A stretch of 64,000 bases of DNA from Phytopythium helicoides (lineage: Eukaryota > Oomycota > Peronosporomycetes > Pythiales > Pythiaceae). The position numbers were made by a program, and so were the translations under genes. Below the pieces are notes generated by a model that was not told where the DNA came from, did no database searches, and saw only the letters and a program-made list of their open reading frames with translations. The number at the start of each line of letters is the position of its first letter. Within the stretch, counting starts at the first letter, position 1. Of the stretch, positions 12,708-56,825 are shown piece after piece. The stretch is from contig JANFNE010000031.1 of NCBI GenBank assembly GCA_024867545.1, positions 434,001 to 498,000 of the forward strand, given 5' to 3'.

Positions 12708-14199
12708 TTACTGACCCGACAAAAGTGCCATTGCCGACTCAAGAGCAGCAGGTCCCTTCGATACGGCGATATCCATCTCCTTCCGCAGATCCGATGCAGA
12801 TATTGAGACTCCACCACGATACAGCTTGATGAAGGCGCTTCTCACTACCACGATACCTTCAGTCATCTCACTGCTGCGATGGGAGGAACTGGAGTCGTGT
12901 CCTTGAGAGTACTGTTGATGGTGAATGCTGAAGATACTAGTCACATCCAAGCGCATCCGACCAGCGGTGTAAGGATACAGTTTGTCGTCCTCGACTGAAT
13001 GAATGACGATGGTTGCCTGTGCTTCGTTGTCGAGTTGTCCTTTGCAATCGGCACCAGCTTGATACTCGGAGAACAGAACGCCGTTGAACTCTGTGACGAC
13101 TCCCGTCGGAGACCATCTCATGCAAAGGCGATGGGCGATTCCACTTTCATCCAAGTTCGGATGTACATCCACAGCTTCTGTCATCGACCGCACTCTCGTC
13201 TTCTGACACACAAAGTCCATCTCTGATGTCAGCACCGAGCGAAGTGCGTCCAAGACTTGCTTGACATTTGTCGCGCCTTGAATTGGAGTTGCCGCAAACA
13301 CACATGTACACATGTCTCCCTCGGCAGTGGTGGACGATGACAATTCGTAGCATGGAAGCAGTCCACCACTCAAGAAGCGCATTCGCTCGCGCAGAGTCTC
13401 TCGTCCGTCGCGCAAGATGCCAGCACTCAAATCACGCAGAATGTTCACTCGATCGGGGATCTCTCGGAGCAAACGAATGCTGTAGTTGAGTAGCCTCACA
13501 GAGCTTTGAGGCTGGACACGAGTATGCATAGCGATGTAGTGTTCAGCTTGCGGTCGCACCGAAACAACACAACAAACTATAGGCAATCAATCAGCATCCA
13601 CGTACCGACATGTGGGACGCGACTGATAGCCCACGAGTGATCCATAGCTGCTGGAGACGAGTCAATTCGCGTAGCTTGGCGTTGATGAGCTGGCGTTTGT
13701 GGAGAGACGAGTGCTCGTCGGACTGGGTCACTGCTTCTTGCATGAGATGCTCGATATATGCCTCGAGCTTGGGCACCTCGAGCTTCAATTGCGCGATCTC
13801 CATCTACAGACCACCACCACCACAGTTGATCGTTCGGCATTATGGTTCATGAAGCGGAATCGATATGTGAGCGGAGCGTACCCTGCGCGCTGTGTCACTT
13901 CGCATGTTTAGATGTTGAGTTGACTTTGACGGTTGGGTGGGTGGTTTAGGTCGAGAGATCGCTCCTGCCGGAGGCTTTGCCTCTGTCATTCCCAGCTCGA
14001 ATCCACATGCCATCAACGCGTCTTGATGGGCTAGGGTGGAGCTGAATTCTGCGAAGAGAGCAGTTGACTGCAACGGTTCTGGGTCTCTGTGCTGGTTGTC
14101 ATTGTTGACCTTGAGCTCCAAGTCGAGTAGGGAACTATCGACGGCCACGCCGCTGAGCAGCTCGTCGAGCCAAGTCGGTGGGATCCAGGGCTCTGCCAT
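12708..14199 (-). CDS. S3: type II zipper + START-like protein
   Basis: Exons are 14199-13882, 13803-13606 and 13511-12708 (318, 198 and 804 nt), giving 439 aa with no break. ATG at 14199 opens MAEPWIPPTWLDELLSG. The linker is Pro/Ser-rich (SRPKPPTQPSKST) and exon 1 ends NMRSDTARR. Exon 2 encodes MEIAQLKLEVPKLEAYIEHL and later RQLINAKLRELTRLQQLW. Exon 3 opens PQSSVRLLNYSIRL and carries the START-like core (GVVTEFNGVLFSEYQAG; QATIVIHSVEDDKLYPY; GRMRLDVTSIFSIHHQQ; GIVVVRSAFIKLYRGG), ending ALLSGQ. Donors are GTACGC and GTACGT; acceptors are CTGTAG and GTCCAG. The START fold would place a lipid-type ligand beside a dimerising zipper; neither ligand nor DNA target can be read from sequence. Confidence 0.85.
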
Positions 14200-21950: not shown

Positions 21951-23425
21951 TTACTGACCCGACAAAAGTGCAATTGCCGACTTAAGAGCAGCAGGTCCCT
22001 TCGATACGGCGATATCCATCTCCTTCCGCAGATCCGATGCAGATATTGAGACTCCACCACGATACAGCTTGATGAAGGCGCTTCTCACTACCACGATACC
22101 TTCAGTCATCTCACTACTGTGATGGGAGGAACTGGAGTCGTGTCCTTGAGAGTACTGTTGATGGTGAATGCTGAAGATACTAGTCACATCCAAGCGCATC
22201 CGACCAGCGGTGTAAGGATACAGTTTGTCGTCCTCGACGGAATGAATGACGATGGTTGCCTGTGCTTCGTTGTCGAGTTGACCTTTGCAATCGGTACCAG
22301 CTTGATACTCGGAGAACAGAACGCCGTTGAACTCTGTGACGACTCCCGTCGGTGACCATCTCATGCAAAGGCGATGGGCGATTCCACTTTCATCCAAGTT
22401 CGGATGTACATCCACAGCTTCTGTCACCGACCGCACTCTCGTCTTCTGACACACAAAGTCCATCTCTGATGTTAGCACCGAGCGAAGTGCGTCCAAGACT
22501 TGCTTGACATTTGTCGCGCCTTGAATTGGAGTTGCCGCAAACACACATGTACACATGTCTCCCTCGGCAGTGGTGGACGATGACAATTCGTAGCATGGAA
22601 GCAGTCCACCACTCAAGAAGCGCATTCGCTCGCGCAGAGTCTCTCGTCCGTCGCGCAAGATGCCAGCACTCAAGTCACGCAGAGTGCTCACTCGATCGGG
22701 GATCTCTCGGAGCAAACGAATGCTGTAGTTGAGTAGCCTCACAGAGCTTTGAGGCTGGACACGAGTATGCATAGCGATGTAGTGTTCAGCTTGCGGTCGC
22801 ACCGAAACAAACTATAGGCAATCAATCATCATCCACGTACCGACATGTGGGACGCGACTGATAGCCCACGAGTGATCCATAGCTGCTGGAGACGAGTCAA
22901 TTCGCGTAGCTTGGCGTTGATGAGCTGGCGTTTGTGGAGAGACGAGTGCTCGTCGGACTGGGTCACTGCTTCTTGCATGAGATGCTCGATATATGCCTCG
23001 AGCTTGGGCACCTCGAGCTTCAATTGCGCGATCTCCATCTACAGACCACCACCACCTCAGTAGATCGTTCGGCATTATGCTTCATGAAGCGGGATCGATA
23101 TATGAGCGGAGCGTACCCTGCGCGCTGTGTCACTTCGCATGTTTAGATATTGAGTTGGCTTTGACGATTGGGTGGATGGTATGGCTCGGGAGGCCCCAGA
23201 CGCTGGAAGCGTTGTCTCTATCTTGTCAGGCTCGAATGCACTCAGCACCAGCTCCGCTCGCTGGATTGTTGTGGTGACACTGGGACTATCGCAGACATAA
23301 GATGCCTCCGAGTGACTGGCGTTGTTGTCCTTGACCTCCGGATCAAACAGAGGGGTATGAACATCAGCAGCCACGCCGCTAAGCAGATCGTCGAGCCAAA
23401 TCGGTGGGATCCAGTGCTCGACCAT
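21951..23425 (-). CDS. S5: type II zipper + START-like protein
   Basis: Exons are 23425-23117, 23038-22841 and 22754-21951 (309, 198 and 804 nt), giving 436 aa, unbroken. The start MVEHWIPPIWLDDLLSG has Val where other type II genes have Ala. The exon 1 linker (SHSEASYVCDSPSVTTT) differs strongly from S3 while exons 2 and 3 are almost the same as S3, so exon 1 diverges faster or was exchanged. The START-like core keeps TGVVTEFNGVLFSEY and GIVVVRSAFIKLYRGG. The last residues are SAIALLSGQ. Confidence 0.85.
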
Positions 23426-29325: not shown

Positions 29326-30810
29326 TTACTGACCCGACAAAAGCGCAATTGCCGCCTTAAGAGCAGCAGGTCCCTTCGATACGGCGATATCCATCTCCTT
29401 CCGCAGATCCGATGCAGATATTGAGACTCCACCACGATACAGCTTGATGAAGGCGCTTCTCACTACCACGATACCTTCAGTCATCTCACTACTGTGATGG
29501 GAGGAACTGGAGTCGTGTCCTTGAGAGTACTGTTGATGGTGAATGCTGAAGATACTAGTCACATCCAAGCGCATCCGACCAGCGGTGTAAGGATACAGTT
29601 TGTCGTCCTCGACGGAATGAATGACGATTGTTGCCTGTGCTTCGTTGTCGAGTTGTCCTTTGCAATCGGTACCAGCTTGATACTCGGAGAACAGAACGCC
29701 GTTGAACTCCGTGACGACTCCCGTCGGAGACCATCTCATGCAAAGGCGATGGGCGATTCCGGTTTGATCCAAGTTCGGATGTACATCCACAGCTTCTGTC
29801 ATCGATCGTGCTCTCGTCTTCTGACACACAAAGTCCATCTCTGATGTCAGCACCGAGCGAAGTGCGTCCAAGACTTGCTTGATATTCGTTGCGCCTTGAA
29901 TTGGAGTTGCCGCAAACACACATGTACACATGTCTCCCTCGGCAGTGGCGGATGATGATATTTCGTAGCATGGAAGCAACCGGCAATTCAAGAAGCGCAT
30001 TCGTTCGCGCAGAGTCTCTCGTCCGTCGCGCAAGATGCCAGCACTCAAGGCACGCAGAATATTCACTCGATCGGGGATCTCTCGGGGTAAACGAATGCTG
30101 TAGTTGAGTAGCGTCGCAGAGCTTTGAGGCTGAATAAGTGTGCACACGGAGACGCCATTTTCAAATGTCGGAAACATAGCCTCAAACTAGAATTAGAGAT
30201 CTATGCACGTACCGACATGTGGGACGCGACAGATAGCCCACGAGCGATGCGGAGCTGCTGGAGACGAGTCAACTCGCGTAGCTTGTCGTTGACGAGCTGG
30301 CATTTGTGAAGAGACGAGTTATCGTCGGACTGGCTCACTGCGTTCTGCATCAGGCTTTCAATGCACGCCTCGAGTCTGGGCACCTCGAGCTTCAGCTGCG
30401 CGATCTCCATCTTGTAGACCGGTAATATGATTGTTAGACTCAAAACTCCATGGAACTGACAGATGCTCGAGCAGTATGGGAGCCGAGCGTACCCTGCGTG
30501 CCTTGTCACATCGAACGCTTTGTCTTGAGTTTGCCGGCTGAATAGGCGGTTTGGCTCTCTGGATCGCAACTACCGGAGGTTTAGTCTCTGTCTTGTTTGC
30601 ATCGAATGCGCTCGGCACCGAATTTCCTTGCTGCATCGTGGTGGCGCTGATGTCAACACAAATAGTGGATGGCTGCAACGGTTCCGAGTCTGTGAACTCG
30701 CTGTCGTCACTGCCCTTGAACTCCAGATCAAAGAGGGAGCTATCGATATCAACAGCCGCGTCGCTCAGCAGGTCATCGAGCCAAGTTGGCGACATCCAGT
30801 GCTCGGCCAT
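29326..30810 (-). CDS. S7: type II zipper + START-like protein
   Basis: Exons are 30810-30493, 30410-30213 and 30129-29326 (318, 198 and 804 nt), giving 439 aa. The ATG chosen at 30810 (MAEHWMSPTWLDDLLSD) matches the family start. An in-frame ATG at 30867 would add 19 residues (MAESNNVSLKSASQG). Exon 1 ends VRCDKARR, so the conserved Thr of TARR is replaced by Lys here and in S9. The exon 2 zipper is MEIAQLKLEVPRLEACIESL. Exon 3 is START-like and ends AAIALLSGQ. Acceptors are TACAAG and ATTCAG. Confidence 0.85.
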
Positions 30811-35616: not shown

Positions 35617-37101
35617 TTACTGACCCGACAAAAGTGCAATTGCCGACTTAAGAGCAGCAGGTCCCTTCGATACGGCGATATCCATCTCCTTCCGCAGATC
35701 CGATGCAGATATTGAGACTCCACCACGATACAGCTTGATGAAGGCGCTTCTCACTACCACGATACCTTCAGTCATCTCACTGCTGCGATGGGAGGAACTG
35801 GAGTCGTGTCCTTGAGAGTACTGTTGATGGTGAATGCTGAAGATACTAGTCACATCCAAGCGCATCCGACCAGCGGTGTAAGGATACAGTTTGTCGTCCT
35901 CGACGGAATGAATGACGATGGTTGCCTGTGCTTCGTTGTCGAGTTGTCCTTTGCAATCGGTACCAGCTTGATACTCGGAGAACAGAACGCCGTTGAACTC
36001 CGTGACGACTCCCGTCGGAGACCATCTCATGCAAAGGCGATGGGCGATTCCGGTTTGATCCAAGTTCGGATGTACATCCACAGCTTCTGTCATCGATCGT
36101 GCTCTCGTCTTCTGACACACAAAGTCCATCTCTGATGTCAGCACCGAGCGAAGTGCGTCCAAGACTTGCTTGATATTCGTTGCGCCTTGAATTGGAGTTG
36201 CCGCAAACACACATGTACACATGTCTCCCTCGGCAGTGGCGGATGATGATATTTCGTAGCATGGAAGCAACCGGCAATTCAAGAAGCGCATTCGTTCGCG
36301 CAGAGTCTCTCGTCCGTCGCGCAAGATGCCAGCACTCAAGGCACGCAGAATATTCACTCGATCGGGGATCTCTCGGGGTAAACGAATGCTGTAGTTGAGT
36401 AGCGTCGCAGAGCTTTGAGGCTGAATAAGTGTGCACACGGAGACGCCATTTTCAAATGTCGGAAACATAGCCTCAAACTAGAATTAGAGATCTATGCACG
36501 TACCGACATGTGGGACGCGACAGATAGCCCACGAGCGATGCGGAGCTGCTGGAGACGAGTCAACTCGCGTAGCTTGTCGTTGACGAGCTGGCATTTGTGA
36601 AGAGACGAGTTATCGTCGGACTGGCTCACTGCGTTCTGCATCAGGCTTTCAATGCACGCCTCGAGTCTGGGCACCTCGAGCTTCAGCTGCGCGATCTCCA
36701 TCTTGTAGACCGGTAATATGATTGTTAGACTCAAAACTCCATGGAACTGACAGATGCTCGAGCAGTATGGGAGCCGAGCGTACCCTGCGTGCCTTGTCAC
36801 ATCGAACGCTTTGTCTTGAGTTTGCAGGCTGAATAGGCGGTTTGGCTCTCTGGATCGCAACTACCGGAGGTTTAGTCTCTGTCTTGTTTGCATCGAATGC
36901 GCTCGGCACCGAATTTCCTTGCTGCATCGTGGTGGCGCTGATGTCAACACAAATAGTGGATGGCTGCAACGGTTCCGAGTCTGTGAACTCGCTGTCGTCA
37001 CTGCCCTTGAACTCCAGATCAAAGAGGGAGCTATCGATATCAACAGCCGCGTCGCTCAGCAGGTCATCGAGCCAAGTTGGCGACATCCAGTGCTCGGCCA
37101 T
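35617..37101 (-). CDS. S9: type II zipper + START-like protein
   Basis: Exons are 37101-36784, 36701-36504 and 36420-35617, giving 439 aa. It is nearly identical to S7, including VRCDKARR and an in-frame upstream ATG at 37158. At its 3' end it carries SAIALLSGQ and SSSHRSSEM, residues seen in S5 or S3 rather than in S7, a mosaic pattern. Confidence 0.85.
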
Positions 37102-42382: not shown

Positions 42383-43884
42383 ATGGCGGAGCATTGGGTG
42401 CCACCCCCTTGGCTCGACGAGCTGCTGAGTGGGGCGACTATTGATATTGACAGCTCCCTATTTGATGGGGATCTCAAGGACGCGAATGACAGCCAGCTCG
42501 CGGACTCGGGGCATACTCAGCCATCCGCTCTGTGCGCTAGCTCGAGCACTGCCAGTGGCAGCGCCGTAACGCAGCAAGATGAGCTGACGCCGAGCGCACT
42601 TGAGCAGAGTGAGATAGAAACAAAACAGTCGGCAGTACCGATCCCTCGACCCAAACCGCCGACCCAATCGTCGAAGTCAACTCAATCTCTTGCCGTGCGA
42701 AGTGACACAGCGCGCAGGGTACGCTCCGCTCACATATTGATTCCGCTCCATGAACCATAATGCCGAACGATCAACTGAGGTGGTGGTGGTCTGTAGATGG
42801 AGATCGCGCAATTGAAGCTCGAGGTGCCCAAGCTCGAGGCATATATCGAGCATCTCATGCAGGAAGCAGTGACCCAGTCCGACGAGCACTCATCTCTCCA
42901 CAAACGCCAGCTCATCAACACCAAGCTACGCGAATTGACTCGTCTCCAGCATTTATGGATCACTCGCGGGATATCAGTCGCGTCCCACATGTCGGTACGT
43001 GGATGCTGATTGATTGCCTATAGTTTGTTTCGGTGCGACCGCACGCTGAACACTACATCGCTGTGCATACTCGTGTCCAGCCTCAAAGCTCTGTGATGCT
43101 ACTCAACTACAGCATTCGTTTACCCCGAGAGATCCCCGATCGAGTGAGCACTCTGCGTGCCTTGAGTGCTGGCATCTTGCGCGACGGACGAGAGACTCTG
43201 CGCGAACGAATGCGCTTCTTGAATTGCCGGTTGCTTCCATGCTACGAATTGTCATCGTCCACCACTGCCGAGGGAGACATGTGTACATGTGTGTTTGCGG
43301 CAACTCCAATCCAAGGCGCGACAAATGTCAAGCAAGTCTTGGACGCACTTCGCTCGGTGCTGACATCAGAGATGGACTTTGTGTGTCAGAAGACGAGAGC
43401 ACGATCGATGACAGAAGCTGTGGATGTACATCCGAACTTGGATGAAAGTGGAATCGCCCATCGCCTTTGCATGAGATGGTCTCCGACGGGAGTCGTCACA
43501 GAGTTCAACGGCGTTCTGTTCTCCGAGTATCGAGCTGGTACCGATTGTAGTGGACAACTCGACAACGAAGCACAGGCAACCATCGTCATTCATCCAGTCG
43601 AGGACGACAAACTGTATCCTTACACCGCTGGTCGGATGCGCTTGGATGTGACTAGTATCTTCAGCATTCACCATCAACAGTACTCTCAAGGACACGACTC
43701 CAGTTCCTCCCATCGCAGCAGTGAGATGACTGAAGGTATCGTGGTAGTGAGAAGCACTTTGATCAAGCTGTATCGTGGTGGGGTGTCAATATCTGCATCG
43801 GATCTGCGGAAGGAGATGAACGACGTCGTATCGAAGGGACCTGCTGCTCTTGAGGCAGTCATGGCTCTTTTTCCTTGTGAATAA
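42383..43884 (+). CDS. S10: type II zipper + START-like protein, inverted
   Basis: The only plus-strand array member. Exons are 42383-42718, 42797-42994 and 43081-43884 (336, 198 and 804 nt), giving 445 aa with no break. It opens MAEHWVPPPWLDELLSG, with an Asp/Ser-rich segment and a Pro/Ser linker (PRPKPPTQSSKSTQ), and exon 1 ends AVRSDTARR. The zipper is MEIAQLKLEVPKLEAYIEHL. START-like: GVVTEFNGVLFSEYRAG; QATIVIHPVEDDKLYPY; GRMRLDVTSIFSIHHQQ; GIVVVRSTLIKLYRGG. The C-terminus is ALFPCE rather than LLSGQ. Exons and introns match S3/S5 closely, so the inversion is recent or conversion still operates across strands. Introns are 78 nt (GTACGC...CTGTAG) and 86 nt (GTACGT...GTCCAG). Confidence 0.88.
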
Positions 43885-52990: not shown

Positions 52991-53019
52991 TGACCCACGA
53001 AAAAGTTTGACAGTGAATT

Positions 53020-53036
53020 GCAAATCTCGGCGGCAC
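53020..53036 (-). promoter_or_regulatory. Array upstream motif, distal copy
   Basis: GCAAATCTCGGCGGCAC, 1021 bp upstream of S12 and adjacent to repeat R1. It may belong to a lost gene. Confidence 0.35.
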
Positions 53037-53689
53037 ATCAGTGCCGTTCGAGCAATTCAACACGTAATCCCCCTGGGCTACGTCAACAGTGCACATACTG
53101 GACTACGTGTTTCACTTTCAACAGTGATGTGTACCAGTTTGCTTGCGAACGTGAGCTCACTCAGCTGCTTGTGTAGTGTGGTTTAGCGCACAGTTACGTT
53201 CAATCGATATGAGGCTACAGTATTACTCAATAGATTCTATATACACCTGCCTCTTTCATAGTTAGATGTGCTTGTGTCGTTTGTGTGATCTGGCTAGATA
53301 GACGACAATAGCGACGCTAACGTACTCATATGTCGACCAGTGGTCGAATTGATTGGCTGACGATGCTCACAATCAGCTCATCAGCCTTGACTGACCCTGT
53401 AGACGGTTCGAAATGTGAATGCTGACCTCTTGGACCAGATGTTTGATGTTTATTCCCACCCCCGCAAAACCAAGCAAACAAACACTTTCGCATGGTTTCA
53501 CTCCCCACTAGAGAGTGCACAAAATAGGCACGTACACCTCACTTCAAACACTGATCAGTCGGTGACATGGTTGCGACAAAACGAGCATTAGTGGCGGAAG
53601 AGTACAAAGGTGTTGCTGCACGGAACATTCGTAAACCACATCCAACAAGACAATTCATGAATAGATGATACAATGTAAAAGAATAGTTC

Positions 53690-53866
53690 ACCATTGCTAG
53701 CACTCGCCTTCGGCTCGCGGGTATGGCCGTGGTAAGCCCGGCATCCTACGATAAAAGACGATGACTGGGAATGGAACCCAGTGAAAATGCAACAATGCCT
53801 GAGCATACAGTGCTATCTGCGGGCAACGCTGAGCGCACCTGCAGACACTTTGTGGCCCCTGATGTG
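53690..53866 (-). ncRNA. Candidate Fanzor omega-RNA region
   Basis: Begins directly after the Fanzor stop on the same strand. A hairpin CTGGG-TTCCATT-CCCAG lies at about 53785-53769, and GC-rich pairing segments (GCCGGGC, ACGGCC, GCCGAAGGC) lie at 53745-53705. In TnpB/Fanzor loci the guide RNA scaffold overlaps or follows the 3' end of the gene. Location plus structure make this a candidate only. Confidence 0.3.
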
Positions 53867-55735
53867 TTAAGTTGGCGCTCGGCAAAAAACGTTAGGTCTT
53901 GGTTGACCACGGAGCATGTAGAAGAGAAGCATGAGCATGTTCTTCGAGGCGTTGACGTCGCGGTTCATAGTAGTACCAAAACAGCCATTGGATCGACAAT
54001 GGAGCACACTATAAACCTTGCACGTCCGCCATTCCTTGTCCGTGCTGTTCTTGACCTTGCAGAGGCGGAGACTGTACTGGTATTCTAGCCGCCGATGGCA
54101 ACGTGAGTGAAGCTTGCTGGTGCGAAACTCATCAATTAGTTGTACACGACAGTAGTTTCTCAATGTGTGCTCGAGTCTTTTGACCGACCCCGCGGGGCAC
54201 TTCTTGATGAGTCCAGAGTAATCGGTATTGCTCCAATCTCCAAATCCAACCACCGTTCGTCTGCCAGCTTGCTGGGTCAGTCTCCGACATAGTTCATGAA
54301 GCTTCTTCTGCGCAAAGATGTACCGACCAAAACGCAGGTTGCGGAATCCCTTCGCCCGTGAAAATCCTAGCAGGTTTTCCATATGTGGAATAACATATCG
54401 TGTGTGCGTTTCCAGCAACTCGAGCGACGCGGTCTTCTTCGATGGCATTTGACGCTCGGCCGTCAAAATGTCGGGCCGCCGCTCCTTCCAGCAAGCTATC
54501 TTCTGGTTGCTCTTGTGGTAGCGAGCATCCTCGTAGAACTCACGAGAAGAGCAGAGGATAGTCTCGCCGTCCTGGTTGGTTGCTACAAACAGATCTCGTC
54601 TGCCAGGATCTAGGCCCCACATGACATCATAATCTTCTTCCCTACGTGGGCAGTCTGTCGCCGGATGGGTTTTTCGCATGACAATGCTGACAGCCTTTCC
54701 GTCTGTCACGATCTCTCCTGCGAACTTCTTGTTGGCTGTTTCAAACTTCTCGATATTGAAGAGACTGTGCCACCATTCGTCCGCGACAGCATTCCAATCG
54801 TCACCTAAAGGAGGCACGCGAACACCAGCACGTAGAAGTAGGCTGTGGAGCGCCGTCTTGCACATCTTGAAGTGCGAGCACTTGAACCCATTCTTCGTCG
54901 GCAGGAGACTGAACGTGCGGACCTCTGGGATGTCCTGTCGATGCTGAAACCGGCGATTCCTCTCTTCAATGTCGGTCAGAATCATGTAGGTGAGAGGAAG
55001 CAATCTGTTAGCCTCGTCGGACAAGTAGCCGCTCTCGTTGCGCGGGATCTGCTCTCGCCAAGCCTGCACCTCGGTATCATTGCCGTTGTAGACAGGGTCC
55101 AGGATGCTCTTGATCATGACGTAGGCCTCAGCACCATTCAAGTCATAGACCCGCTTGATGTGACGGTGAAAGCGACGGTAGAAGTTGCGTACGATCGCGT
55201 TCTTGGTGTTAGTGGCCATCATTTGGGCTGCGTTCTGCTGCCAGCCAGCGGTAAACTGCCGGTTGCTTGCACGTCGAGCGTCTTCACCTCGCCAAGCGTT
55301 GTACAGCGTGACTGATTGCTGGAATGCAGGAGACCCGAGTGTGGAGTTGGCGTTGCAAACACACGATAGGCATCTGTAGAAGAAGACCTGGTTGAGTGGC
55401 TCCACTGCATCGCCCAGCTGACACATCCGCACGGCGTGGATGTTGGCGAGGACGTAAGCCTCCAGCACGGCCTGGTCCATATCCGCCAGCACGGACTCCC
55501 ACGGCAAAGTCATGGCCTCATCGCTCTTGCAAAACGCCTTGAGCGACGTCTTGACGCACACAAGCGAGGATTTGGCGTTAGCTGCGTCACGAGCTTCGAC
55601 TTCGGCTCGTCGCCTCTTTGACTGACTCTTGCGTGGTTCTGCACTGCGCTTCTTCCTTTTAGATCTAGCATCGCCTGACGTCGGACCAGCTGCACGTGCT
55701 GTCTTGGACCGACCTCGTCGACTTGTGGAAGCAGT
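53867..55735 (-). CDS. Fanzor (eukaryotic TnpB-like RNA-guided nuclease)
   Basis: Residues are counted from the GTG (Val) at 55561, giving 564 visible residues to the stop at 53867. RuvC-I is GLDPGRRDLFVA with Asp318. RuvC-II shows GFGDWSN at 439-445, followed by the relocated Glu478 in IDEFRTSK. A zinc-finger-like segment (His485-x2-Cys488, Cys522-x4-Cys527) lies before RuvC-III NRDVNASKN (Asp535). The order and spacing are those of Fanzor proteins, where the RuvC-II Glu sits just before the zinc finger. The frame stays open upstream to 55735 and encodes a nuclear localisation-like stretch (SKRKKRSAEPRKSQSKRRR), but no ATG occurs there. An upstream exon with ATG at 55892 and a GTAAAG donor at 55784 could supply it. 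All three acidic residues are present and no frameshift is seen, so activity is possible. The first zinc ligand is His instead of the usual Cys. Confidence 0.9.
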   Translation of the reverse strand, partial: TASTSRRGRSKTARAAGPTSGDARSKRKKRSAEPRKSQSKRRRAEVEARDAANAKSSLVCVKTSLKAFCKSDEAMTLPWESVLADMDQAVLEAYVLANIHAVRMCQLGDAVEPLNQVFFYRCLSCVCNANSTLGSPAFQQSVTLYNAWRGEDARRASNRQFTAGWQQNAAQMMATNTKNAIVRNFYRRFHRHIKRVYDLNGAEAYVMIKSILDPVYNGNDTEVQAWREQIPRNESGYLSDEANRLLPLTYMILTDIEERNRRFQHRQDIPEVRTFSLLPTKNGFKCSHFKMCKTALHSLLLRAGVRVPPLGDDWNAVADEWWHSLFNIEKFETANKKFAGEIVTDGKAVSIVMRKTHPATDCPRREEDYDVMWGLDPGRRDLFVATNQDGETILCSSREFYEDARYHKSNQKIACWKERRPDILTAERQMPSKKTASLELLETHTRYVIPHMENLLGFSRAKGFRNLRFGRYIFAQKKLHELCRRLTQQAGRRTVVGFGDWSNTDYSGLIKKCPAGSVKRLEHTLRNYCRVQLIDEFRTSKLHSRCHRRLEYQYSLRLCKVKNSTDKEWRTCKVYSVLHCRSNGCFGTTMNRDVNASKNMLMLLFYMLRGQPRPNVFCRAPT

Positions 55736-55783
55736 TCATGCCCGTTTACGTGTATGCAGGCAGAGCTTGCAAAGGCCGCTTTA

Positions 55784-55892
55784 CTAGCTTGCCGTGGCTC
55801 ATGATGGAGCTCTGGACATCCTCCCTATGGCATCTCCAACAAGCAATACGAAGTGTCAATGCAGTGCTGTTGCCATCGCTGGGGGAGGGCAT
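55784..55892 (-). other. Possible 5' exon of the Fanzor gene
   Basis: ATG at 55892 opens MPSPSDGNSTALTLRIACWR. A GTAAAG donor at 55784 could join to an acceptor ending GTCCAAG (about 55706) in phase. This is inference only. Confidence 0.3.
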
Positions 55893-55934
55893 CGCGCAAC
55901 CCGCTTGAAGATGATGAACTGCGCTGCCAGCTTG

Positions 55935-56825
55935 TCAATTGGGCAGTATCGTAACGACAGGTTTATATAGTTTGACGTCTCCTTTTCCACGTTTTCCGGT
56001 TGAGTGAGAGTTTATGTCGATCGTTGGGATGAGAAAGGTGAATGTAGAAATGGAGGTTTTTGTGGCCATCAACCAGCGCCAATGCCGGGTACCCCGGCCA
56101 TTAACTTGTGGATAAACTGTCTTGTGTGCTACATGACCCTTGGATACCGCGAAGTTCACCTCTCTCCGCAGCGCCGATACAGGTATTGACACCCCACTAC
56201 AAAGAAGCTTGATGAAAGTGGTTCTTACAACCACGATTCCTTCGGTTCTATCGGCGCTGTGGCGCGAGGATCTTGGTTCGCATCCTGCGAGAACTTTTGA
56301 TGGTGAACGCTGATCACACTCGTCCCATCCAAGCGCATCCGACCAGCCGTATAAGGATGCAACTTGTCATCTTCAACAGGATGGATGACGATCGTTGCTT
56401 GTGCTTGTTTGTCGATTTGTCCACTCGATTCGGTACCAGTTCGATACTCGCAGAACAGAACGCCGTTGAACTCCGTGACGACTCCCGTCGGTGACCATCT
56501 CATCCCCAAGCGGTGAGCGATTCCACTTCGATCCAAGTCCGGGTGTGCACCCACAGCTTCTATCATCGAACGCGGCCCCGTCGTCTTCTGACACACAAAG
56601 TCCATCTCTGATGTCAGCACCGAGCGAAGTGCGTCCAAGACTTGCTTGACATTCGTCGCACCTTCGATTGGAGTTGCCGCAAACACAGATGTGCACATGT
56701 CTCCCTCGGCAGTAGTGGACGACGACACTTCGTTGCACGGAAGTAAGCTACCACTCAAGAAGTGCACTCTTTCGCGGAGAATCTCCCGTCCATCGCGCAA
56801 TATGCTAGCGCTCGTATCACATAGT
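55935..56825 (-). pseudogene. S13: truncated, frameshifted type II START-like gene
   Basis: Homology to type II exon 3 begins abruptly at about 56825 (ILRDGREILRERVHFLSGSL); exons 1 and 2 are absent. The START-like core is recognisable (GVVTEFNGVLFCEYRTG; QATIVIHPVEDDKLHPY), then the frame is lost near 56260-56228 and resumes as MVVRTTFIKLLCSGVSIPVS before drifting into unrelated sequence after AVSKGHVAHKT. It lies about 110 bp beyond the possible 5' exon of the Fanzor gene. Confidence 0.8.

Follow-up and report, generated by a model that had tools for sequence, protein, structure and literature searches.

A start-less Fanzor1 gene in a multicopy, putatively Helitron2-like element of the oomycete Phytopythium helicoides

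Fanzors are eukaryotic relatives of CRISPR nucleases, and we know of no established role that they play for transposons. In this study, we analysed a 64,000-nucleotide stretch of the Phytopythium helicoides genome (hereafter, the window) and found a gene that sequence and predicted fold assign to Fanzor type 1. The window copy is itself a start-less relic and only a passive member of its family, and the variants shared among family copies are under purifying selection. The reading that we favour, and to which we give an even chance, is that a non-autonomous Helitron2-like element carries the gene, that this element multiplied recently in this oomycete genome, and that it is moved in trans, with Fanzor acting by cut-and-copy.

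Results

The gene occupies an open frame of 564 codons on the minus strand (positions 53867 to 55561), which begins with GTG and has no ATG start. A sequence-only reading of this DNA had recognized a Fanzor without frameshift over 560 residues, and our analysis bears this out: GLDPG, IDEFRTSK, NRDVNASKN, and the zinc-ribbon pair are present in one continuous frame, and profile searches found Fanzor1s and no placement in another transposase family. Searched against PDB as a single protein, the frame matched SpuFz1 (E 7.6e-10) and PpFz1 (E 1.2e-5); a third row, at E 0.37, was set aside as a chance match. With a 48-row profile, made of the window frame and 47 proteins from among 120 matches listed of 140, the same search returned SpuFz1 (3.3e-30), PpFz1 (3.9e-21), and GtFz1 (1.9e-12). 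The C-terminal part matched Pfam Cas12f1-like_TNB weakly (E 1.5e-4, short of the cut-off), and NCBIfam guided_TnpB was matched at E 0.016. The best named protein relatives come from Globisporangium ultimum (61%) and Phytophthora nicotianae (59%). Structure prediction gave a fold with pLDDT 91 whose best structural matches are Fanzor1 structures, and which is nearer to Fanzor1 than to Fanzor2, TnpB, or Cas12f. One protein in the alignment (P0017), a full-length Fanzor1 on a 3.3-kb contig, is labelled as a Thermoplasmata archaeon MAG. Its nearest row is the green alga Klebsormidium (55%), and we suspect from this sequence comparison that the archaeal label reflects contamination.

The acidic residues D318, E478, and D535 align with D383, E541, and D606 of SpuFz1, after checking of the residue offset; the SpuFz1 active-site residues and its CCCC zinc finger are taken from Saito et al. 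(2023; PMC10432273). D318 lies in GLDPG, at RuvC-I, where a DPG motif is described as a Fanzor feature (Yoon et al., 2023; PMC10711439), and is kept in 47 of the 48 aligned rows. E478, the RuvC-II glutamate, is equally conserved (47/48). It adjoins the zinc site, as had been proposed, the first ligand position (485) following about six residues on. The third acid, D535, stands C-terminal of the zinc site and is kept in 46/48 rows. This alignment and the fold match suggest that the three acids converge. The predicted metal site is a four-ligand zinc ribbon at positions 485, 488, 522, and 527. The H-x2-C half-site had been thought unusual; in the 48 aligned rows, position 485 is histidine in 37, cysteine in 10, and aspartate in one, so that in the aligned sequences H-x2-C is the norm for this Fanzor branch.

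Comparison with a sibling copy (L005) reveals what the window copy has lost. In the sibling, the frame goes on upstream across a basic region, starts at an ATG within GCCACCATGG, and comprises 659 codons. The window copy lacks about 218 bp, corresponding to positions 368-585 of the L005 element, and with them the ATG and the first 36 codons. An in-frame TGA (55736 to 55738, minus strand) marks the scar, followed by an in-frame remnant of the basic N-terminal region (55562 to 55735, minus strand), and the first in-frame ATG (55511 to 55513, minus strand) is residue 17 of 564. Hence, the gene, which had first appeared intact, is not so, and the suggestion of potential activity fails for the window copy, whose start is lost, and holds only as applied to its siblings. 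Likewise, the presumed nuclear-targeting extension survives as a basic, probably nuclear-targeting stretch deprived of its start codon. A 5' exon at 55892, also envisaged, is unlikely, since the short frame beginning there is not kept in L005. The same deletion junction occurs in five other copies (L003, L028, L029, L036, and L037). The flanks of these copies differ, which indicates that copying of the scarred form continued once the start had gone, presumably with enzymes encoded elsewhere. The whole frame is kept in 24 of 40 fetched copies; these 40 loci had the highest protein scores of the 77 scored, so that both this share and the terminal omega given below are favourable.

Alignment of copies and paralogous empty sites places the element at positions 53694 to 56100 (minus strand), about 2407 bp (approximately 2.4 kb), as compared with about 2.63 kb in L005. 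The interval originally read as the gene (53867 to 55892) leaves out the element ends. Because the two ends and the empty site all have A bases, the ends are uncertain by 2-3 bp. The 5' end is formed by a terminal palindrome (TGGCCGGGGTACCCGGCA; 56083 to 56100, minus strand), of which an inverted near-copy (ATGCCGGGCTTACCACGGCCAT; 53723 to 53744, minus strand), read from the sequence and the alignment of copies, is found at a subterminal position on the 3' side. Thus, the inverted repeats are asymmetric, the 5' one at the very end and the 3' one about 30 bp inside. A possible 3' hairpin with a GCC-GAA-GGC core was read from the sequence at 53701 to 53719 (minus strand); the fold energy of the terminal DNA palindromes does not go beyond that of shuffles (z -1.05 and +0.81).

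A search of the genome gave 79 rows, many of them partial, in the 77 scored candidates of 307. The further copies whose existence had been left to a genome search are therefore abundant: the family is found at no fewer than 77 places, with 85-98% identity when the window copy is set aside. End patterns with up to three mismatches detected 119 3' ends (36-mer) and 81 5' ends (27-mer), an excess that is only partly due to truncation, since the 5' end is more variable across copies than the 3' end. Among the 100 3' ends listed of these 119, 41 have no 5' partner. Conversely, 60 of the 81 5' ends have a 3' partner no more than 30 kb away, and for 47 of these the distance is 2.27-2.70 kb. At one place (C58:139966-149485), two Fanzor copies lie about 7 kb apart with identical 75-bp flanks on both sides, as after segmental duplication. 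Another copy, L068, retains the two ends together with the final ~650 bp of the element, and about 730 bp of other DNA (positions 207-936) replaces most of its gene. Some 250 bp of this foreign DNA resembles the DNA beside copy L004 (87%), in a capture-like manner, and three further end pairs are of about the same length as L068 (1523-1556 bp).

Shared variants of the Fanzor gene are under purifying selection. In a tree of 39 copies, L021 being omitted from the selection tests, internal branches carry 105 synonymous and 45 replacement changes and no stops (omega 0.18), and terminal branches 321 synonymous and 328 replacement changes with 14 stops (omega 0.42); 33 codon changes of two or more bases were left out. 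The scarred copies are scattered in this tree and do not cluster. For this reason, the test was repeated without a tree, again leaving out multi-base codon changes, which were not counted here. Single-copy variants comprised 196 nonsynonymous and 104 synonymous changes plus 11 stops, and variants in two or three copies resembled them (31 and 19, plus one stop). Variants present in at least four copies were biased towards synonymous changes (15 nonsynonymous, 43 synonymous, no stops), and they differ from single-copy variants at P=3e-8. Of five wrong-frame controls, frame -2 showed a weaker contrast in this direction (P 4e-4), and the others showed none or the opposite. The lineages that spread seem to stem mostly from copies able to make Fanzor, and a working Fanzor seems to have been favoured meanwhile.

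The insertion site was analysed in 25 of the 40 loci, namely those in which both ends are present and GTGCTAGCAA matches exactly. The 5' flank has T in 19/25 copies and then G in 17/25 before AA (P 1e-7 and 7e-6 against 0.25), and the 3' flank begins with T in 19/25 (P 1e-7 against 0.25), giving an insertion motif of about WTG-AA. The window copy, with GTT before AA, fits it in part; for its own empty site, no spanning match was found among the fetched DNA. Paralogous empty sites of 84-87% identity were found for three other copies. In L022, AA occurs once in the empty site and at both element ends; the empty site of L036 has AC; and in L018, AAA is present once in the empty site and at both filled junctions. 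The empty sites of L006 (about 80%) align poorly. Three copies have A at -1, and all three also have A at +1 (P 4e-4). The AAA copies lean towards a target duplication of 2-3 bp in an A tract. Alternatively, the AA, which the element has at either end and empty sites have once, may represent end bases that are shared without duplication.

According to Bao and Jurka (2013; PMC3627910), Helitron2 elements have asymmetric inverted repeats, the 5' one at 0-2 bp from the end and the 3' one 20-30 bp inside, and the aligned ends of our family are arranged in just this way. The tentative designation Helitron2-like is based on this arrangement and on the missing 5' ends. The genome has its own Rep genes: PF14214 (Helitron_like_N) gave 33 matches, 32 of them above the cut-off, and matched in none of 14 control genomes. 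We compared 31 of these 33 rows, the other two being fragments beside listed rows, with the 81 5' ends by script, and at none of the 31 Rep places, apart from those on contig C1, did a Rep gene lie between family ends, a comparison that diverged ends would escape. This one candidate for an autonomous Helitron, in which a 5' and a 3' end on contig C1 are separated by about 25 kb, was rejected after reading 10 kb and 301 bp of sequence, as both junctions read as those of an interrupted Fanzor element: the copy is broken off behind AACAGA, its sequence continues from ATTGCTT about 22 kb further on, and the intervening DNA contains Rep genes. This split copy comprises L061 (C1:625600-635599) and L062 (C1:650050-650350) and encloses two Rep matches at a spacing of 10.7 kb; others elsewhere (C17, C23, C26, and C35) are paired or tripled at 9-12 kb, as if in tandem. 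We infer that the enzyme moving the Fanzor element acts in trans and is most likely a Helitron-type Rep/helicase.

The 3' noncoding region (53694 to 53866, minus strand) is a candidate guide-RNA scaffold. Its diversity is about half of that at 4-fold sites (0.021 against 0.040; bootstrap P 0.003), and the 5' noncoding diversity is 0.044. This low diversity fits a guide RNA. The predicted RNA fold is mildly better than shuffles (z -1.84). Covariation in the 3' end gave no support (one compensatory cell of 1536 against 17 broken), and Rfam, searched at gathering scores over the window and at E 10 over positions 53000-56500, gave no match.

Discussion

The results of our study are consistent with a Fanzor that works for its element by a TnpB-like cut-and-copy mechanism. 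In this scheme, intact copies would make Fanzor, and its guide RNA would consist of the 3' noncoding end and adjoining host DNA, reaching just beyond ...GCTAGCAA to include 15-20 nt of flank. The insertion motif may serve as TAM, and the Fanzor-guide complex would cut sites or sister chromosomes devoid of the element, whereupon repair would copy the element back. Copies with the deletion, that of the window among them, would have to rely on others; the presence of start-less copies at several sites indicates that the element has no strict need of a Fanzor in cis.

A different route of movement is a credible alternative, if on balance not a probable one. The element may be no Helitron at all, and instead a cut-and-paste or single-strand element that enters the A tract after WTG, duplicates 2-3 bp, and uses its palindromic ends as transposase sites; the role of Fanzor could be the same. 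A plain Helitron makes no target duplication, and the A bases found once in the empty sites of L022 and L018 and at both their ends (AC in L036), together with the extra A on both sides of all three AAA copies, agree with this view, as does the failure to find a Rep partner with family ends among the 31 places compared. Mariner insertion gives TA, which argues against that transposase here, even though described Fanzors of Pythium ultimum sit in Mariner elements (Bao and Jurka, 2013; PMC3627910). Moreover, the same work describes for Helitron2 both the asymmetric inverted repeats and the many 3' ends lacking a 5' end, and reports that those of its copies which bear a Fanzor can show duplications whose length varies.

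We consider it unlikely that Fanzor is a passive passenger, without a role in an element that a transposase spreads in trans. Start-less copies with one common scar at differing sites would suit such a passenger, as would L068, with both ends retained despite the loss of most of its gene, and the three end pairs of similar length; the synonymous bias of shared variants and their lack of stops speak against it. Finally, it is highly improbable that the window copy is itself an intact, active Fanzor with a possible 5' exon at 55892: the catalytic residues within 564 open codons speak for it, and against it stand the 36 deleted codons, the stop at the scar, and an upstream short frame not kept in L005.

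In its architecture, the favoured Helitron2-like element recalls CRe-1, CRe-2, and CRe-3, the Fanzor1 elements of Chlamydomonas assigned to Helitron2 (Bao and Jurka, 2013; PMC3627910). Like our family, these place a Fanzor1 in a non-autonomous element that has a 5' palindrome and asymmetric inverted repeats; in both, the 5' end is missing from many copies. Unlike it, their genes have 5-10 exons instead of one open frame, they insert after TTTT or T-rich tetranucleotides instead of at WTG-AA, and their ends match confirmed Helitrons, whereas we found no such partner. SpuFz1 of Spizellomyces punctatus (PDB 8gkh, 9cez; Saito et al., 2023; PMC10432273) shares the fold (TM 0.73), the D-E-D active site, and the multicopy element. 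It differs in sequence (18% identity in the fold alignment), in having a CCCC zinc finger rather than an H-x2-C half-site, in its CATA TAM, and in its element, which has 33-bp TIRs and a putative TA duplication. The SpuFz1 guide RNA is known from its 3' end, whereas that of our family is only proposed.

Oomycete Fanzor1s, which have their host group in common with the window gene, are known (Bao and Jurka, 2013; PMC3627910), and a Phytophthora cactorum Fanzor model is named by Yoon et al. (2023; PMC10711439). The described P. ultimum Fanzors lie in Mariner elements, unlike the Helitron2-like one studied here (PMC3627910). In the CC-licensed PMC literature, outside which most subscription papers lie, we found neither a Helitron-like oomycete Fanzor nor a selection test of this kind. 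Helitron-borne Fanzors and oomycete Fanzors have thus each been published already, and what is new here is a family member with a useful selection signal. Saito et al. (2023; PMC10432273) proposed that Fanzors may help single-strand transposons to spread, naming Helitrons. The present family, which has an insertion motif and a selection signal and comprises dozens of nearly identical copies, both intact and broken, makes the role of Fanzors for transposons testable.

The surroundings had been described as a START-gene array, which Pfam did not confirm: at E 0.1, none of eight window ORFs tested matched START. Two scanned ORFs of a repeat family beside the element had no Pfam match either, and the START label is unconfirmed. 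A search with a neighbouring ORF gave two matches. The oomycete host proposed from the sequence is confirmed by another window gene, whose named matches are oomycetes, the best from Phytophthora (47-48%). Copies of the repeat family beside the element share 81-83% DNA identity and are located at positions 12754-13435, 21997-22671, 29372-30046, 35663-36337, 43164-43838, and 56137-56813.
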